Shown in pieces: positions 3,650-62,919 of a stretch of DNA of 64,000 nt. Origin of the DNA: Rhizophagus irregularis (Eukaryota > Glomeromycota > Glomeromycetes > Glomerales > Glomeraceae); contig NC_089440.1 of assembly GCF_026210795.1 (NCBI RefSeq), positions 2,170,001-2,234,000 on the forward strand. The letters are read 5' to 3'. Position 1 is the stretch's first letter, and every line of letters starts with the position of its first letter. The notes beneath the pieces were generated by a model that had not been told where the DNA came from, searched no databases, and saw nothing but the letters and a program-made list of their open reading frames with translations. The translations under genes were made by a program, and so were the position numbers.

Positions 3650-5734
3650 TTTGACTTATAGATATCCTAAAATTTTAGGATAGGGAATTTATCAGAAACG
3701 CATTTCTCCTTCTATCTTGTTTGCTACTTGGCATATAATGTACGAATGCGAGTTATAATATCGTGAATTTATACATTTGAACGTAGATTAACGAGTAACG
3801 AGAGTCGAGAAAAAAAAGGTCATTAAATATGGTGATGTGACTGATGCGTGAAGTGTAAAGTTAAATGGTAAATATCGAAATCTTACAATATATATAGTTA
3901 TATAGAGTTATAATTACTGTATATCGTAAAATGGTAAATTTGAATAAGTTATGTAAGGTACTTTCGAAATTCAATTCGTCAATCCTCTTATCAAAATATA
4001 TATCGTAAGTCAAACCAAAGTAGATATCCCTTTGATATAAAGTTATCATACTTTAAAACTAGATTAAAGATTCGACTGTAATACAGTATTACTTTTTTTT
4101 TTTTATATTATTTTTTTATTAAATTTGTAATCACAATATAATAATAAAAAATTATTTTTTTTTTCGGTTACATGTTATAATTTAGAGAGACGTTATAAAT
4201 TTAATGAAATAAATAATATCACATTGACACATTGACATCATTTTCATGTAGTCCCCAATATATAATGGTATATCAATATATAATGGTATATACAACATAT
4301 AATGGTATATACAACATATAATGGTATATACAACATATAATGGTATATACAACATATAATGGTATATACAACATATAATGGTATATACAACATATAATGG
4401 TATATACAACATATAATGGTATATACAACATATAATGGTATATACAACATAATGGTTAAATCATCATCCCCGGTGATATCGATATCGTAATATCTAATAT
4501 CTGATTTATGATCATAAACAATCTTGAAACGTTTGCACCCATTTACAACCTAATCAATATAATATTTACCATATACTGATATAACGTAATGTAACATCAA
4601 TATATGGTTAGATTGACTCAGATATCTCGGCGAATTCAGTCAAAGAGAACGAAAATGAAACCTGATTAAGAACTTCTATCGGGTATTTTAGGCATTAAAC
4701 GATTTATCATTATAAAATATTTTATTATCAGCATTCTTAAAACAGGAATATCTTATAATTGTGAAACCAAATTGCATTTAAACGCATTTAAACTGATGTA
4801 ATCGCTCGGAAATGGTAATAATATATCGGATATGATTTACACGTTTTATATTTATGCATTTTCGGGCATTGGCATTTCCATTTTATCTATAATTCTTTAA
4901 AATTATGACGAAAATGATGAAACGCGTCTTACTAACTTTGCATTTCATTATTCGCTCATACCCTATTAGGGTTCTTTTGTGCTATAGTTCATTAGTCATA
5001 AAAACTTTTAATATTAAAGTCATGGTATTACTAGATTAAAAAAGATCAAAAAGATCATAATTTTGGAAAATTTTTTGAACATAATAAAATAATTTATTAT
5101 ATTAATTACTGTATATTAATTAATCTAATTGTGAATTGAGTAAAATCTTATCCATAAAAGATATAAAACTGTGTATTATACATATACATGCTGGCTTACA
5201 TTTTTGACATCATTATTTACTTTTTTTATCACAAAGATTTTTTATTGGATGTGATATATAAAAAATGTATGTTGATGCCTATTAACGATCCATTACATTT
5301 ATTATACTGTTTTCGTTTTATTTGATATAACGTAAAAAGTGTATGCTAAAAATAAAATAAGACGAATTTAAAGTGATTACATATACGTACATGCATGCAT
5401 TATTATTAAACCCTGCATCTCCTATTACATACTTTTTTTTTCTACGAGATCTACGCAATTTTTGACAGTTTTTTAAATCATAGCAACGTATCTTGTATAA
5501 CAAACACTTTAATAATTGTGGTATATTGATACGATGTGATAATTGGGTGTTACTTTGAATTGAGTTCAATAAATGCAAATTTCACGTCTATGAATGGATA
5601 TATCTTTTTTTTTTTAAAAAAAAAATAAAATAAAATAAAGACTCCTTAATTTACGAATAAATATAACATTTATAGTTATGTAAGCCTTAAAATTAATTTT
5701 AATTCAACGAATCACGTCTTTATTATATCGAAGT
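3650..5734. other. Gene-free A+T-rich intergenic stretch
   Basis: Apart from the 19-bp minisatellite listed separately, I see no coding region or RNA gene. The small open frames here lack domain, splice or composition support. A 10-bp direct echo 'aattttagga' follows the F-box stop near 3670. Confidence 0.5.
4262..4450 (+). repeat. Minisatellite, 19-bp unit, about 10 copies
   Basis: Near-perfect head-to-tail copies of ATAATGGTATATACAACAT. The motif 'aatgg' starts at 4264, 4282, 4301, 4320, 4339 and on to 4434, so the period is 19 except for the first step of 18. The first unit is variant (tatcaatata) and the last is truncated into 'acataatggtt'. There are no spacers, so it is not a CRISPR array. 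Open frames on the minus strand are an artefact of the repeat. Confidence 0.95.
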
Positions 5735-27150: not shown

Positions 27151-27455
27151 AATAAATTTATCTAAATAATTATATAGTTTATTCAAATAAATTAATTGCC
27201 GATTCGCCACTTAGCGATACAAATAAGGTTACTTGCCAAAACTAGGGGGTTTCGGCAGAACGGCGTACGTGAAACTGCCGAAACTGTCGAAACTGCCGAA
27301 ACTGTTTCGGCGTTTCGGCGTAGTATATCATATGACATGCTATAGTTTCGGCATTTTGATAATCTATTGATAAAAACTGGCCAATTAATCTATTTTTTTT
27401 TATCGGCCAAAATTTTTTTTAATAAAAAAATAATTAAAAAAATTATTTTTAATTA

Positions 27456-27690
27456 TTTCTTTTTCGGTTTTTTAAACCGAAATTTTTTTTTTATATTTCT
27501 TTTTCGGCTTTCTAAACTGAAATTTTTTTTAAAAAAATTTTTTTTTTTATATATTTCTTTTTCGGTTTTCTAAAACTGAAATTTTCTTAAAAAAAATTTT
27601 TTTTATATATTTTTTTTTCGGCTTTTCTAAAACTGAAATTTTTTAATTTTTTATATATTTCTTTTTCGGTTTTCTAAACTGATTTTTTTT
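27456..27690 (+). repeat. Tandem hairpin units, five copies
   Basis: Five units of about 45-50 bp, each containing TTTCGGTTTTCTAAACTGAAA-like imperfect palindromes separated by T-runs and 'tatattt'. The first unit is a perfect palindrome (TTTCGGTTT/AAACCGAAA). They belong to the hAT-like element. Confidence 0.8.
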
Positions 27691-27708
27691 TTGGTTTTAT
27701 TTTTTAAG

Positions 27709-28382
27709 TTACCGGACTCATTGGAATGAACTGGACTTAGAATGTAAGTTGTAAAAAGGGCGGATATATTTTTAATATTAAAGAAACGTTACTAACGTTT
27801 CTTTCTCTATCTTTTTTAGGTTACTGGACTCTTTGGACGAATGTGGATTCTATTGGAATAAAGTAAGGGCAGTTTTTGGTCCTTCCTTAGAGTGAAGTAT
27901 GTGGTAAGTGATTTGGGTGGGTGTATAATATGAAATGGCGTTATAAAACAATACTAACAACATTCTTTTTTTTATCTTTTTTTAGATTTTCGGCTGTAGA
28001 ATATGCGGTAAGTGAAGTTTGGGTGGGTGTATAATATGAAATAGCGTTATAAACAATACTAACAACATTATTTTTTTATTTTTTAGATTTCTGGCTTTCT
28101 CTTGAAGTGGGATATGCGGGTAGGTGTTTGAGTGGTGTGTGGTTGTGTGTTTTTAATATCAAGAATCATTCTAACGTTTTCTTCTACTTTAGGTTGCCAG
28201 AATTCTAAGATGAGCTGTTGGCTTTGAATATAAGTTAGAGGGAGAGGGGAAATATTTCTTAATATTTTAAAGAAACATATTAATGTTTCTTTCTTTGTTT
28301 TATTTCTTTAGGTTGTCGGATTTTTGGATAATGGGGAGTTATATTTAATTGCGTAAAGAAATATATATTTTTTTACTTTTAG
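27709..28382 (+). ncRNA. Tandem intron-like/mini-exon array (putative spliced non-coding RNA)
   Basis: A plus-strand series of intron-like units: 27744-27819, 27904-27985, 28008-28086, 28120-28192, roughly 28230-28311 (donor decayed to ATAAGT) and 28353-28382 (shortened). Most start GTAAGT/GTAGGT and end TTTTTTAG or CTTTAG. Several have TACTAAC or TTCTAAC 20-35 nt before the end. Units 2 and 3 are near-identical (GTGGGTGTATAATATGAAAT shared). Exon-like pieces (27709-27743, 27820-27862, 27986-28007, 28087-28119, 28193-28230, 28312-28352) also resemble each other (GTTACYGGACTC, ATTTYNGGCT) but encode no continuous frame. Unit 1 and unit 5 place the branch motif in a hairpin (AAGAAACGTTACTAACGTTT). 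Transcription is inferred, not shown. Confidence 0.55.
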
Positions 28383-29400
28383 GACATGAACTTAAAGGCA
28401 TATCATTGATTTATAAGAAATTTATTATTATTACAATAAAATAAAAAATACAATAAAACAATAAAATAGAATATGTTGATGTTTTTTATTGAAGTGTAAG
28501 TGAAAAAAAATAAAGAATGCCAAAACTATGCGAAACTCATATAAAATATTATTATGTATTATGCCGAAACTATGGATAAATGAGGTTTTGCAGTTTTGCA
28601 AGTTTTGGCAGTTTCGCAGTTTTGGCCAGTTTCAGCATTTCGGCATTTCGGCAGTTTCGCTACTATATACGAGTTTTGGCATTTCGCGTTGGGCCAAATG
28701 GGTTTCGGCAAGCAACCTTAGATACAAAATAATTGGCAATCTATAATTAATCTCGTCGAACATTTTTATATTAAATACTATTGCTTCTAAATGGTGTTTG
28801 CACAAGTTTGAAACATTTTGTTGTAATATAAATGCCCTAAAAATACATTAAAAAAAGGTGTTACATTACTTAGGTATAGTTTTATAAAACTGGTAAAACT
28901 AAAACATTGCCAAAAAAAAAAAATTTATTTTATTTATTTTATTTTTTTTTAAAACATTATTTTGTTAATCTAAGCAAGAATATATCATATATTATATAAT
29001 AATACAAAAAAACCTTGTAAAATTTGCAAAATTCGCGAATAATTGGTGTAAAGTTACCTAAAATATGAGTTGGAATGGTGACTTCCTCCAAAGTAAACTC
29101 TTTAAATTTTATAGCAAACGAAAAAAAATTTTTTTTTTGTGACATATTCACGTTTTGCATTATTAATTGGTAAAGTATAGTTACATTAAGCATGACTTAT
29201 GTAGGACAAAATCAGAGTTGAAATATGCCGATCAACATCATTCATATAAGAACTTGCGATGGATCTACTAATCAATTTTGTATCGTTGAGTGGCGGATTG
29301 GCAATTAAATAAATTAATACATAAACTAAAATTTTTACAATATTTATTTGTAATAATTATTTATTTATTAATTATTTATAATTAAAGTTATGGACTAAAC

Positions 29401-29455: not shown

Positions 29456-30320
29456 CACCCACCTGCCAAAAGTATCCAGACACTTTTAAAATATGACCAT
29501 TAAATTACATTATTTCGACATCCAGTAATCAGAATTTAACGATTTATGATTCATTGGATTCGTCTAATTGAGACGCATCTAACCGCAGTATTTTTAAGTC
29601 TGTAAGTTCAATAGATCAGAAGTTATTGCTGAATGTCTAAAAATAGTAAAATGCAAATAACTTTTGATCCATCAATTCTAGAGACATGAAAATAATAGAT
29701 ACAATGTACCTTAACAAGATAAATCTAATGAATCATATTTCATAATTCTAAGTTTAATAGGGAAGAAAATGTTGTAAAATTTGTATTTGCTAAAGTTTTA
29801 AAAATAAAAAATGAATTACTTCATAAAGTTAAATCACATTATTTCAATAACCAGTAAACAGAATTTAATTATTTATGATTCAATGAATTCATATTATCAA
29901 GATGCATCTAATTGCAGTGTTTTATGTCTCTAAATTTGATGGATCAGATGTAATTCTCAACAGTAAAATGCAAATAATTCATTATTTACTTTTAAAAATT
30001 TGACATATACAAATTTTAAAACGTTTTCTTCTTTATTGAACTTAGAAAGATGAAATATGATTCATTCAATTTGTCTTGTTAAAATACATGGTATCTATTA
30101 TTTTCATGTCTCTAGAATTGATAGATCAAAAGTTATTTGCATTTTACTATTTTTAGACATTCAGCAATAACTTCTGATCTATTGAACTTACAGACTTAAA
30201 AATACTGTGATTAGATGCGTCTTAATTAGACGAATCCAATGAATCATAAATCGTTAAATTCTGATTACTGAATGTTAAAATAATGTGATTTAATGGTCAT
30301 ATTTTAAAAGTGTCCAGAAA
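29456..30320. mobile_element. Tc1-like element with long (about 290-bp) inverted repeats
   Basis: The left arm (from 29456, CACCCACCTGCCAAAAGTAT) is mirrored by a right arm ending near 30320 (complement TTTCTGGACACTTTTAAAAT). Pairing continues for about 290 bp. A third, diverged copy of the arm lies inside in direct orientation with the left arm (about 29826-29970). There is no transposase. TA precedes the left end; the right end is less certain because the homology fades and a GCCAAGCAACCTTAG end-like motif follows at 30336-30350. Confidence 0.7.
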
Positions 30321-30350
30321 GTTAAAATGAGTTTAGCCAAGCAACCTTAG

Positions 30351-46504: not shown

Positions 46505-46757
46505 TAAAATCTGTAAATTAAAATGATTAAAATTTAAAAATAGAAATAGTTAAAAATCTGTAAATTAAAATGATTAAAATTTAAAAATAGAAATAGTTAA
46601 AAATCTGTAAATTAAAATGATTAAAATTTAAAAATAGAAATAGTTAAAAATCTGCAAATTAAAATGATTAAAATTAAATAAAATAATTAAGAAATCTGCA
46701 AATTAAAATGATTAAAATTTAAAAATAGAATGATTAAAAATCTGTAAATTAAAATGA
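46505..46757 (+). repeat. 47-bp tandem repeat in the divergent promoter, about six copies
   Basis: The unit contains CTGTAAATTAAAATGATTAA and ends 'aaaaatagaaatagtt'. The CTG anchor is at 46511, 46558, 46605 and 46652 (period 47), then about 46696 and 46742 (shorter, decayed). It lies between the two divergent transposon genes. Confidence 0.9.
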
Positions 46758-47006
46758 TTGAACCTCTACGCCAAAAATGTAAAAAAATCAAAAAAAAAAA
46801 AAAAAAAAATTGAGAATTCACACAAACGAAAGAAATATCAAATTCTTCATTAAAATTCGCAAATTCACAAAATTCATAATTTCGCATTAATTAAAATAAT
46901 CATTAATAAAATCACTAAAATTCGCTTAAAATTAGCAAAAGAACAAATAAAAATAAATATTTACTATACCGCAAATAAATCCTCATAAATTGTTCTTCAA
47001 ATAAAA

Positions 47007-57808: not shown

Positions 57809-58617
57809 ATATTAAATTTATAAACGAATATTCTTTTGCTGTTGTAAACATTTCGTTTAATTAAAATCATTTCGTTTAATTAAAATCGGTATATCGAAAT
57901 ATTTTTTTCTTCGTACATAAATTTAAATAAATATATTTTTTTAAATCGCTCGTGTTCGCATTCGAATATATACATATTTAAACCCGATATATTTTTAATG
58001 CTTATAAAACTATTCCTTCCTCCTTTCTGTTTTGTTTTATTACAATTTCGATATTAAATATACATCTATCTATATACGTATTATTTACATATATGTTTAA
58101 AGAAATTCCTGAACAATAAGTTTAAAAGACCAAATATGCGAAATCGTATTTTAGGAGTTTAATCATTTTCTTCGCGATTTTTAATTTTAATTCGTATTAG
58201 ATGTTTATATCGTTTTTCAAATTATATCACCGCAATTTATGTAATAAATAAATAATAAAGTATATAACTATTTATCATAATTTCCATAATTTCCTCATCG
58301 TGATAAAATACAACCAATGCATCGACCGATATTACTATTACTAAATGAGTTTGAAAACATTGTAATAAGACTTGTACAACTCCCAAAGTATTGTTGAAAA
58401 AATAAGGCAGTTGCTTACAAAAAGGTTTATTTTGTCCAATTGTATAACCAAATTAGTGTTGTTTACAACAATAAGATAGTTAAACCTCATAGTATCTTAA
58501 GTGGTTTATCCATTTTAAATAACTCAGCCAAAATTTAGTCAACCCGATTAAGTATCACAATGGATAACCATAATATGATATAAAGGATGAAAAAAAAATA
58601 GTACTTTCAAAAATTTA
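57809..58617. promoter_or_regulatory. Upstream region of the first MIR gene
   Basis: No gene. A TATA-like GATATAAAGG lies near 58577-58586, about 35 bp before the ATG at 58618. The rest is A+T-rich with no clear repeat. Confidence 0.35.
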
Positions 58618-59834
58618 ATGAGTATAATGATTGACTTACCGCCTCGATATGATGGCACTCTTCATCCGGAAGTTTGGATTCAGGACTTGCGTTTCTTTTG
58701 TACTCTTATGGGTATCCACGAACAAGCTACTATATTGAACATAGCCATTCTAAGAATAGATCACAATATTCCAATCCCAAAAGATATTAATTCATTTAAA
58801 TCTCTTATCAATGTTCTCAAAGACCATGTTACTCACTCCGTATTCCGCGCAGTTTCTCTTGAGAAACTTAATAAATTGAAATGTGAGCGTAGTATAGACA
58901 TGTCTGAATTTATTGCAAAGTTCAATTCCCTCTGCAGTAACGCAAACATCACCAACCGGGAAGAGAAAAAGGATTATCTACTTCGAAGCATGCCAGACAA
59001 TATTGTTCGGGATGTACTCAGGAACAGAATTGAAAAATTAAACTCATTTGATAAGGTGATCGAAACTTTTAAAGAAGTGATGCTTGATCATAGAAGCCAG
59101 GTTCGCTACGGTTCCAAAATTGCACTCAAACATGTTGTTACCGGACGTTTTTTATCTAGTAAAGATATCAGATATGACACCGGATCAAAGCAATATATGG
59201 TTAGTATACACTTGAATCTCTTATAAAGGCTATACGAATTCAAATAATAATTGGTATTTTTGCGTGAAAATCCAGGTATATTGCAGCAACTGGCAATCAG
59301 ACAAGCGAACAGATTTTTGGATTGTAATTCCACCTCATAAACAATACTGCAAGCCAGGAAATCCAGTTGCGTTTAATTCTATTATTGAATTGAAACATCA
59401 GCAGACCAGTCGAAATTTGCATTCTCATGGTGGTATCGAGTCACCAATAACTAAACAACAAGAAGGTAAAATTCTTAGCTTTTGGTGCTTGAAAGTCAAG
59501 TAATGTATAATGACTAATTAGCTTTGACTTTGCAGTCACTTGTTATTCGGGTACCGATAACAATAACAATTGGCAACTACAACGCCATAGCACCACCAAC
59601 AAATATGACAATTCAGGATATTGGATGATTGGTGACACGATTAGTTTGCGCCATGTTAACACAAAAAAATTACTCTCAAGCCATGATTTCCTATTTGATG
59701 ATGGAAACCAAGAAGTCACTTGTCACTCCTATGGCCATGAAGAAAACAATAAGGTGAATTAAGTTCGTATTATCTAATATTGGGTTGTTATTGACTATTT
59801 TTATTCACAGTGGTGTATAGAAGTTCTTGAGTGA
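58618..59834 (+). CDS. Gag-like domain fused to MIR (SDF2-like) beta-trefoil, paralogue A
   Basis: Four exons: 58618-59199, 59276-59465, 59536-59753 and 59811-59834, all GT-AG and in phase, giving 337 residues. Residues 1-160 (LPPRYDG..PEVWIQDLRFF.., EKLNKLKCERS..MSEFIAKFNSLC, LRSMPDNIVRDVL) have the layout of a retrotransposon Gag/capsid domain: a W in helix 1, an 'xxYI.+F..L' helix and a 'LP..i+' turn. From about residue 164 (YGSKIALKHVVTGRFLSS) to the end there are MIR-type beta-trefoil repeats (IELKHQQTSRNLHSHGG, ISLRHVNTKKLLSSHDF, QEVTCHSYGHEENNKWCIEV), as in SDF2 and protein mannosyltransferases. There is no signal peptide or membrane segment, so it is probably cytosolic. The second ATG (58627) aligns better with the start of paralogue B. 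Function unknown; the Gag reading is my inference. Confidence 0.75.
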
Positions 59835-60690: not shown

Positions 60691-61687
60691 GAGTATATAC
60701 CTCCGATGTTGTATAGTATAGTTGACGAAAATCTATACAGTATAGTTTTTTATATTATAAAAAAGTGAATTCATAAAAATTTTGTATTTCAAGATTAATT
60801 GTTTTTCTGAAACTGGAATAATAGGTAATCACTACATGTATAAGATTTTATGAAAGATCAAAGCACGTCATATTAAAATTCGAACATACGATTTCGTTCC
60901 AAGTAAGCTTAATTCATCTTCCATCAGTAAATGTTTAACTAATTAATTGCTATCTCTTTCCTTATAATTACGTTAAAAGCTGAATTCATATTAATCATGT
61001 TTATACATTTTAATCATTTATCAATTAGCGTAAAATGATTCGCAGACAATATATAATTATTATGCTATTCTGGTAGCTCAAATAGTAAATGGTGCATATA
61101 AAACTTTTGTGTCGGACTTTAAATTATTTAAAATTAGGAAAACGGGATACGTTAAACTTCGCATATTACTGTATATTGCGTTTTTAAATTTATAACGATC
61201 GTAAGAATTTACTATGTTGCTATTTGATCACATTTACTATTAACCTGATCTGCAAAACTATAATAACTAATTATCAATTTGGACAAATTCACGTAAAATG
61301 TTATTTTATATATAATAAATGATACTAACATGGAAAAAATCCAAATTTTATATGAAATATATGCTCAATTAGTATTGTTAGGCAAGCATATAAACCATGT
61401 AAGAAAAAAATTCGATACATTATGCTTTAATGATGGTCATTGCTTCGATATGATTTGGGTCTAAGGACTTTCAATTTTTTTAATCACATGATAAAATTGA
61501 TCAACATATACGTACCATAAACGTATTTATTTAAAACAATCTATTTAACGTTTCATATTGTTAAAGAACCCAGTTTGTGTTTGTTCATTTCTGATTTTGT
61601 TAATATGTAAATGCACATGGCGTTAGACAACATAAAACCTATATAAAAAGTTAATAAAACCAGCATATACGCATATACATTTTAATA
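60691..61687. promoter_or_regulatory. Spacer and upstream region of MIR gene B
   Basis: No gene. A TATA-like CCTATATAAAAAG at about 61640-61652 lies roughly 40 bp before the ATG at 61688. Confidence 0.4.
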
Positions 61688-62919
61688 ATGGAGAACTTAC
61701 CACCTCGATATGATGGAACCATTCAGCCAGAAGTATGGGTCCAGGACTTACGTTTCTTTTGTGCTCTTCGGGGTGTCTACGATCAATCTACTATTCTAAA
61801 TATTGCCATTCTAAGAATAGATCCCGATATTCCAATCCCCAAAGATACAAACTCATTTGATTTACTTATAAGTATTCTCAAAGACCATGTCACTCACTCT
61901 GTATTCCGTGCAGATTCTCTTGAGAAACTTAATAAATTGAAATGTGAGCGTAATAGAGAAATGTCTGAATTTATCGCGAAATTCACTTTCCTCTGTAGAG
62001 GCGCAAATATCACTGGCTGGGAAGAGAAAAAGAGATACTTACTTCGGAACTTGCCAGACGATATTGTTCGAAATATATTCAGGAGTCGAATTGAAAACCT
62101 AAACTCATCTGATAAAAACTCATTTGACAAGGTGATCGAGACTTTCAAAGACGTGATGCTTGAACATAGACGCCAGATTCGTTACGGCTCCAAAATTGCA
62201 CTCAAACACGTTGCTACTGGACGTTTTTTGTCTAGTAAGGATATCAGATATGACACTGGGTCAAAACAACACATAGTTAGTACACAATGGAACTTCTTGT
62301 AACGAATATATTTAATCAAATAACGATTAATATTTTACATTTTGTTTCACTGAAAATCTAGGTATTTTGCAACAACTGGCAGCCAGATAGACAAACCGAT
62401 TTTTGGATTGTAATTCCACCTCATAAACAATACTGCAAGGTAGGCAATCCGGTAGCGTTTAATTCTGCTATTGGATTGAAACATCAGAAGACTAGTAGAA
62501 ATCTGCATTCTCATTCAAACGAGTCACCGAAAACTAAGCAACAAGAAGGTAAATAATCAACGAAATTTTTTTGTTTGAAGTCAAGTAATAAAGACTAATT
62601 ATCTTTGCAGTCACTTGTTTTTCGGGCGCCGATAGCAATGACAACTGGCTATTACAACGTCATAGCATCAATAACGATTATGACAATTCAGGACATTGGG
62701 TGATTGGTGACACAATTAGTTTGCGCCATGTTAACACAAAAAAATCGCTCTCAAGCCATGATTTCCTATTGGATGATGGAAACCAAGAAGTCACTTGCCA
62801 CGCCGATGGCCATGAAGAAAACCATAAGGTAAAGTTTGAGTTGCCCAATGACTATTACAGTAATTTGATCGTTACTGACTGTTTTTAATTCTTAGTGGAT
62901 AGTGGAAGTTTTTGAATGA
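61688..62919 (+). CDS. Gag-like domain fused to MIR (SDF2-like) beta-trefoil, paralogue B
   Basis: Four exons, 61688-62275, 62362-62548, 62611-62828 and 62896-62919, join to 338 residues with the same intron positions and phases as paralogue A. It starts MENLPPRYDG; the first half keeps the Gag-like helices (VWVQDLRFFCALRG, EMSEFIAKFTFLCRG, LRNLPDDIVRNIF). Relative to A it has a 15-bp in-frame duplication (NSSDKNSFDK instead of NSFDK). The MIR half contains YGSKIALKHVATGRFLSS, IGLKHQKTSRNLHSHS, ISLRHVNTKKSLSSHDF and a final WIVEVFE. Intact and close in sequence to A, so this is a recent tandem duplication. MIR modules bind sugars or mediate ER quality control elsewhere; with no signal peptide here, that role is doubtful. 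Confidence 0.78.

Follow-up and report, generated by a model that had tools for sequence, protein, structure and literature searches.

Rows of intron-like units and mini-exons inside DNA transposons of Rhizophagus irregularis

Introduction

Why should the body of a DNA transposon look like a row of spliceosomal introns separated by very short exons? This arrangement is found at positions 27709 to 28382 of a 64,000-nucleotide stretch of contig NC_089440.1 from Rhizophagus irregularis, which we call the window. According to excerpts of two published studies, about two-thirds of the transposable elements of this fungus are unclassified (PMC11075540) and unclassified repeats cover 32% of its genome (PMC8647823), the expression counts in the latter excluding such repeats. 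If spliced, arrays of the kind described here would bear on the content of that large unclassified fraction.

Results

A hAT-like element carries the array

A sequence-only reading of the window had proposed a hAT-like transposon as the host of the array, and in this it was right. The element has terminal inverted repeats (TIRs), is flanked by an exact 8-bp target-site duplication (TSD), and shares its ends with a longer partner that codes a hAT domain. TIRs, TSD and partner also uphold the proposal that a mobile element has multiplied intron-exon modules. The array does lie inside the element, but the element itself runs from 27224 to 28720, beyond the interval 27709..28382 given at first. 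Its features are as follows.

27216..27223: left TSD GATACAAA, 8 bp
27224..28720, plus strand: non-autonomous hAT-like transposon that carries the array, 1,497 bp
27224-27237 and 28707-28720: TIRs TAAGGTTACTTGCC and GGCAAGCAACCTTA, 14 bp, one mismatch
27440..27690: imperfect tandem repeats of 40-58 bp (CTTTTTCGGTTTTCTAAACTGAAA, rich in T), placed between subterminal repeats and array
27744..27819, plus strand: intron-like unit 1, 76 nt, GTAAGT ... ACTAAC ... TTTTTTAG
27780-27804: branch hairpin of unit 1
27820..27903, plus strand: exon-like piece, 84 nt
27904..27985, plus strand: intron-like unit 2, 82 nt
27986..28007, plus strand: mini-exon, 22 nt
28008..28086, plus strand: intron-like unit 3, 79 nt, a close copy of unit 2
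28087..28119, plus strand: mini-exon, 33 nt
28120..28192, plus strand: intron-like unit 4, 73 nt, GTAGGT donor and TCTAAC branch
28193..28229, plus strand: mini-exon, 37 nt, the usual exon length in loci L010 and L025
28230..28311, plus strand: unit 5, donor decayed to ATAAGT (AT for GT)
28269-28292: branch hairpin of unit 5
28353..28382, plus strand: vestigial sixth unit, 30 nt
28721..28728: right TSD GATACAAA, exact match to the left one

The array-bearing element is mobile. Three further array-bearing copies have the same ends as the window element and exact 8-bp TSDs of their own (L009, 1,718 bp, CTTATATG; L014, 1,616 bp, ACAGGATC; L033, 1,787 bp, TAATGGAC). The TSDs match at seven of eight positions in L010 and L011 and at six of eight in L012, which likewise bear arrays and have these ends. 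With at most one mismatch the ends occur at 544 + 576 places in the genome, so that array carriers are probably a minority among the elements that have them.

The longer partner, L085, is an array-free element of 4,480 bp with ends common to the window element and an exact 8-bp TSD; our intron score finds one intron on its plus strand and none on its minus strand. It codes a Dimer_Tnp_hAT domain (PF05699, E 1.9e-5), the transposase frame being interrupted in that copy, and a Myb/SANT protein (PF13837, E 2.9e-10). As read from its sequence, the Myb exon leads through a GT...AG intron into an in-frame arginine-serine (RS) repeat region, which hints at a possible link between this RS-repeat protein and the splicing of arrays. 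The Myb/SANT gene occupies 500-1177 of L085 on the minus strand, with the RS repeat as its second exon. The genome holds 152 matches to the Myb exon, many of them nearly identical and with open frames; an RS part was observed only in L085 and L093.

Non-autonomous hAT elements of the MITE-like type likewise have TIRs, 8-bp TSDs and the ends of a longer element with a hAT domain. The window element differs from them in its body, which is a tandem array of introns and mini-exons.

The window copy retains four intact introns

At least six introns had been counted in the window. Four are intact, each with a GTAAGT or GTAGGT donor, an ACTAAC or TCTAAC branch motif, a T-rich tract and a TTTAG acceptor, and the borders assigned to them (27744-27819, 27904-27985, 28008-28086 and 28120-28192) are exact. 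The fifth has a decayed donor, and the sixth, only 30 nt long, is too short for a spliceosomal intron. This copy of the element is partly decayed; the donor of unit 5 is still GTAAGT in L009, a sister copy 96% identical to it. Exon-like pieces of 22, 33 and 37 nt agree with the 22-43 nt noted earlier, but the 84-nt piece does not, and it probably holds a partly deleted further unit. Units 2 and 3 are indeed near-duplicates, with 36 nt at 97% identity plus 34 nt at 88%. The extra length of L009 in unit 4 is an inserted foldback repeat, not an additional module; this repeat (ATGCCACCCAAATTATTTTGGG..., roughly 185 bp) lies beside the branch motif.

Chance does not account for the row of introns in the window. 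Introns were counted with a fixed generic score, and dinucleotide shuffles (1000) served as control. At the strict threshold of 11.5, the window array holds four introns on the sense strand and none on the antisense strand, while the shuffles hold at most one (n = 1000). At thresholds of 10 and 11 the shuffles reach three introns and never four. At threshold 11.5 the tile that begins at 27651 ranks first among the 362 on both strands of the window. At a loose threshold of 7.5 the shuffles reach five introns and the antisense strand two, and thus only strict matches count as evidence. The array units have donor, branch point, polypyrimidine tract and AG in the order and at the spacing of introns.

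The same polarity is seen in other arrays. Over 24 array loci, some of them near-identical, 102 strict introns fall on the strand assigned as sense, compared with 11 on the antisense strand and 4.4 in shuffles; in L046 and L047 the strand assigned as antisense scored more introns. A sample picked regardless of introns, namely ten exact places of the tail motif described below, yielded as a set 20 introns in sense and none in antisense at threshold 10, with a shuffle mean of 3.4 and a maximum of 8. Because L076 is near-identical to L079, and L078 to L081 and L084, the ten places amount to about seven different sequences.

Related arrays occur throughout the genome and in a second transposon chassis

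The genome searched comprises 146.7 Mb in 32 contigs. Array-like modules are present at at least 122 of its loci, more than 5 kb apart, most of them counted from matches alone; this number, from extended place lists, and the 92 obtained from the first lists both exclude two places that match outside modules. A palindrome whose loop carries the branch motif is found at 162 + 155 places (at most two mismatches; reversed control 0), many of which, being palindromic, match on both strands. Within arrays, mini-exon length is constant while introns vary: L010 has ten introns of 74-83 nt and all nine of its internal mini-exons measure 37 nt, and the first array of L086 has nine scored introns of 79-81 nt, with 32 nt in seven of eight mini-exons. 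The strand-specific splice grammar persists across subfamilies whose exon and intron sequences are very different. One subfamily (L019-L024 and L027) has modules on both strands, in two arrays that point inward. At L020, a satellite of short period based on CATCACTCCATATCGCTC is found on one side.

At least two unrelated transposon types serve as chassis for the arrays, one hAT-like with 8-bp TSDs and one CACTA-like with 3-bp TSDs. The second is represented by L054-L056, which are about 98% identical over 3.5 kb and, in three copies judged by eye, have CACTGGTC ends and 3-bp TSDs (GCA, TGA and AAT). We assign them to a CACTA-like chassis on account of these CACTR-type ends and short TSDs. Their left end has 17 exact copies in the genome, and the L056 insertion sits within a transposase gene that is seen unoccupied in L085, giving an occupied/empty site pair. 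L054-L056 resemble CACTA/EnSpm elements in their CACTG- ends and 3-bp TSDs, as does L086 in starting with CACCG-; they and L086 differ from such elements in their long array body, inside which no transposase was recognised. Inspection by eye places a short hAT-like MITE, flanked by the 8-bp duplication TTCATGTC, at L086:3829-4062, where it interrupts the CACTA-like element between array and tail.

The branch point is the best-kept splice signal

Conservation was measured on modules collected with a profile started from L010. The given loci supplied 277 units, of which 143 were full-length and 56 remained below 88% mutual identity; exon statistics rest on 35 exons with at least 33 aligned letters. 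The T and the A of the branch are each present in 56 of 56 non-redundant modules, whereas the other two loop bases average 0.70, and YTNAY is kept in 55. The first AG after the branch, looked for from the seventh base past the branch A, is TAG in 53 of 56, in most cases about 20-25 nt further along. The donor is still GT in 45 of 56, and these two columns reach no higher than ranks 25 and 27 among 111, so the branch provides stronger evidence than the donor. Mean column conservation is 0.85 for the donor, 0.66 for the intron body and 0.74 for the exon; the hairpin arms, at 0.87 and 0.91, are as conserved as the donor. Stem CpG positions are among the more decayed ones. The module profile itself contains the splice signals, and these values may therefore be inflated.

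Donors and acceptors had been expected to survive between copies better than background, and the outcome is mixed. Comparison of the window with L009 shows no change at any of the 36 donor and acceptor positions in the four intact introns, with 1.7 changes expected from 32 changes over 672 array positions, a difference that is not significant alone. In copies at 70-74% identity to the window, several donors are lost or have become GC and most acceptors remain. L011 and L012 have several donors lost or changed. In the branch pentamers, L009 and the window disagree at 3 of 20 positions, more than the average over the array, and one of these changes breaks YTNAY; the key T and A are unchanged at all eight positions. 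Overall, the module drifts over much of its length and its splice signals persist, the branch point most of all. The view that the array is neither an ordinary gene nor a plain satellite is supported by its anatomy and by this module conservation.

Hairpins surround some branch points and donors

Two window units were thought to present the branch motif in a hairpin loop. Units 1 and 5 do have such hairpins (folding z of -5.2 and -3.6), but the branch A of unit 1 is part of the 3' arm. By the same measure, window units 2, 3 and 4 have no stable branch hairpin. Among 147 non-redundant introns, some of them from flanks, the branch region has z below -2 in 44%, and the donor region gives no folding signal (median z -0.03).

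Covariation at the branch stem is weak, with at least 9 of 11 pairs formed in 13 of 220 25-mers (5.9%) compared with 1.8% for shuffled partners; these 220 non-redundant 25-mers come from 431 introns, 329 of them distinct, and include pseudo-introns from flanks. A stem that starts with the donor, GTAAGTTTCG...CGAAACTT, is found in some subfamilies, and its inner pairs vary between copies in a compensatory manner; in other cases the exon end pairs across the donor. Inner-stem cells at the donor are paired at a rate of 0.788, compared with a shuffled mean of 0.70 and a maximum of 0.793 over 1000 shuffles, so that at least one shuffle beat the observed covariation. This set began with 107 donors, 50 of them distinct, of which 35 had a downstream arm and 25 were usable, giving 23 distinct stems. 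Hairpins straddle donor-like sites in 26 of 297 cases (8.8%) and have their base there in 40 of 297 (13.5%), the corresponding values at other positions being 3.1% and 5.3%.

No excess of G-U over A-C cells was found in the stems, either in the 56 modules (16 versus 30) or in all distinct units (45 versus 54), and selection on the hairpins at the RNA level is thus unsupported. The stems may be kept at the DNA level, or may simply be young.

The exons carry no sense-specific coding signal

No open frame runs through the joined exons, with stops in every joined frame of six arrays. Stop density in the exons is 0.035 in sense and 0.027 in antisense, compared with 0.050 in shuffles (minimum of 0.041 among 200). 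The exons are thus without a coding signal specific to the sense strand. One joined frame of L010 is open for 99 codons. Exons are joined at array junctions of this type in two public gene models of R. irregularis, P0001 (95 aa) and P0002 (75 aa); they are the only two protein matches to the joined exons of a sister array, and they may be ab initio predictions.

Two known kinds of gene were considered and set aside. The exons do not behave as SP7-like effector repeats, given the stops in joined frames, the stop density that is not sense-specific, and the different intron layout of SP7-like genes, which in excerpts of PMC11333574 have one conserved intron, ahead of the first repeat. Genes for the AGL surface proteins of Glomeromycotina are also unlike the arrays, having only one or two introns according to excerpts of PMC8786786. 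ARAGORN found no tRNA gene in four loci, and Rfam no known RNA family in five, with arrays and tail motif covered.

A 52-nucleotide tail follows many arrays

In several subfamilies a conserved tail lies downstream of the last module. It occurs at 79 + 75 places with at most two mismatches (reversed control 0), is 52 nt long and folds to a three-way junction with modest stability (z of -1.8 in sense and -1.9 in antisense). Its antisense strand resembles a tRNA T-arm, but ARAGORN finds no tRNA in four loci. Array-like sequence was seen by eye upstream of the tail in nine of ten exact places, L075 being the exception. The window element is without this motif. The tail has the form GTTGTTTGTTGGAATCGAACCAAC...AACCATTAACAAC in L054, L075-L084, L086 and L093, with a base difference at its start in L076, L079 and L093, and a diverged form is present in L063.

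At L093, a multi-exon coding gene reaches its stop and is followed by an array and then by the tail. The second exon of this gene has seven genome matches at 95-100% identity, and the tail lies 683-684 bp downstream of the second-exon end in seven of seven copies. The array in this seven-copy group, read whole in L093 and at its end in L079, looks like a spliced 3' UTR. The gene, at L093:2424-3411 upstream of array and tail, has a coiled-coil-like exon and no Pfam match above curated cut-offs.

Discussion

What, then, are these arrays? We think it reasonably likely that they are intron/mini-exon modules amplified by transposons, probably transcribed in sense and spliced to give a non-coding RNA or a UTR. 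In the window, tandem modules, each an intron of spliceosomal type plus a mini-exon, make up the body of the non-autonomous hAT-like element, and near-identical neighbours (units 2 and 3 in the window; L010 and L086) point to their amplification by tandem duplication inside the element. Transposition spreads the array along with the element. Conservation of splice signals together with strand polarity leads us to infer sense transcription and splicing. With splice signals kept while the module drifts, and exons that lack a coding signal, the arrays are most likely transcribed and spliced, which would yield a heavily spliced untranslated RNA, either standing alone or as a UTR, and would imply selection for splicing. 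Transposon transcripts that are poorly spliced can be silenced in fungi. A speculative benefit, the likeliest one for the element, is that the transcript passes as a properly spliced, exportable RNA and so avoids host RNA silencing of aberrant transcripts. A wider proposal, which we advance tentatively, is that mobile "splicing arrays", long rows of minimal modules on DNA transposons of several superfamilies in this arbuscular mycorrhizal fungus, are selected for splicing and yield spliced non-coding RNA or 3' UTRs, often with the 52-nt tail, and that the Myb-plus-RS protein of the hAT partner might act in this process.

The splice signals could instead be inherited relics, in a neutral satellite that arose when a captured intron-exon pair was multiplied by slippage within transposons. 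The near-identity of neighbouring units, the decayed donors and the branch pentamers that differ between the window and L009 fit such a history, and young arrays such as L086 are too alike to test it. Relics would nevertheless not be expected to keep the branch T and A invariant in 56 divergent modules while neighbouring bases vary, or to keep a strand-specific grammar in subfamilies of very different sequence, and we regard this explanation as rather unlikely. Less probable still is an array that works as DNA, its palindromes binding a transposase or host factor or serving replication, with splice-like motifs that are incidental. The palindromes are near-perfect, the stems show no G-U excess, compensatory donor stems could stem from palindrome maintenance in DNA, and one subfamily has inward-pointing arrays at both ends. 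Yet window units 2-4 have donor, branch and acceptor and no stable hairpin, the introns are strand-asymmetric, the invariant T lies in an unpaired loop, and a T-rich tract followed by TAG is not palindromic.

Protein-coding repeats, with mini-exons that encode a repetitive product such as an effector, are very improbable. The two gene models and the 99 open codons in L010 speak for them, as does a stop density below that of all 200 shuffles. However, mini-exons of 37 or 32 nt shift the frame from one to the next, stops occur in all joined frames of the six arrays tested, stops are rarer in antisense than in sense, and the single intron of SP7-like genes precedes the repeats. The least probable account, suggested by the sequence-only reading, makes the arrays a source of introners, single units that jump into genes as new introns. 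The units do resemble self-contained introns in a mobile element, and a share of the known introner families show TSDs or TIRs in excerpts of PMC9860276. This suggestion found no support in 18 palindrome places, isolated among the matches listed, of one palindrome type and judged by eye: none resembles a solitary intron within an ordinary gene. Each place is part of more array-like sequence, adjoins it or marks where an array ends, though for L058 and L063 this is only partly true, and at threshold 10 the score finds one or more sense introns in 16 of the 18 (none in L063 and L069). Moreover, TSDs flank whole elements and not single introns.

The arrays differ from their nearest known counterparts. 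Introners are also mobile DNA with functional-looking introns, but here the introns are tandem in one element, and the 18-place sample showed no solitary copy in a host gene. The sister stwintrons of Xylariales, as excerpts of PMC12403724 describe them, are likewise fungal introns that recur and have inverted repeats close to their splice signals. They sit at gene positions, whereas the arrays sit in transposons and have their stems at the donor or branch. Satellite DNA and transposons with internal tandem repeats share the head-to-tail amplification of units inside an element; the array unit differs in its strand-specific splice grammar and invariant branch bases. We found no earlier report of such arrays in the open-access literature; their transposon chassis is of a known kind. 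If spliced, the arrays would be selfish DNA with splicing itself as cargo, multiplying introns without insertion into genes, and would bear on how introns spread and on how transposon transcripts pass host RNA surveillance.

Other features of the window

By eye, the array element appears to be inserted into the left end of a longer outer element at about 27195-29310, with ends AATTGCCGATTCGCC and GGCGGATTGGCAATT and a possible 9-bp duplication AAATAAATT. A long inverted repeat at about 29480-30349, also seen by eye, ends in GCCAAGCAACCTTA and probably represents a foldback form related to the hAT-like family of the array element. Two similar ORFs about 3 kb apart, at 58591-59226 and 61658-62302 (...PPRYDGT...EVWVQDLRFFC...), have a gag-like look. 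Tandem repeats lie at 46506-46759 (47 bp) and 4256-4451 (19 bp).
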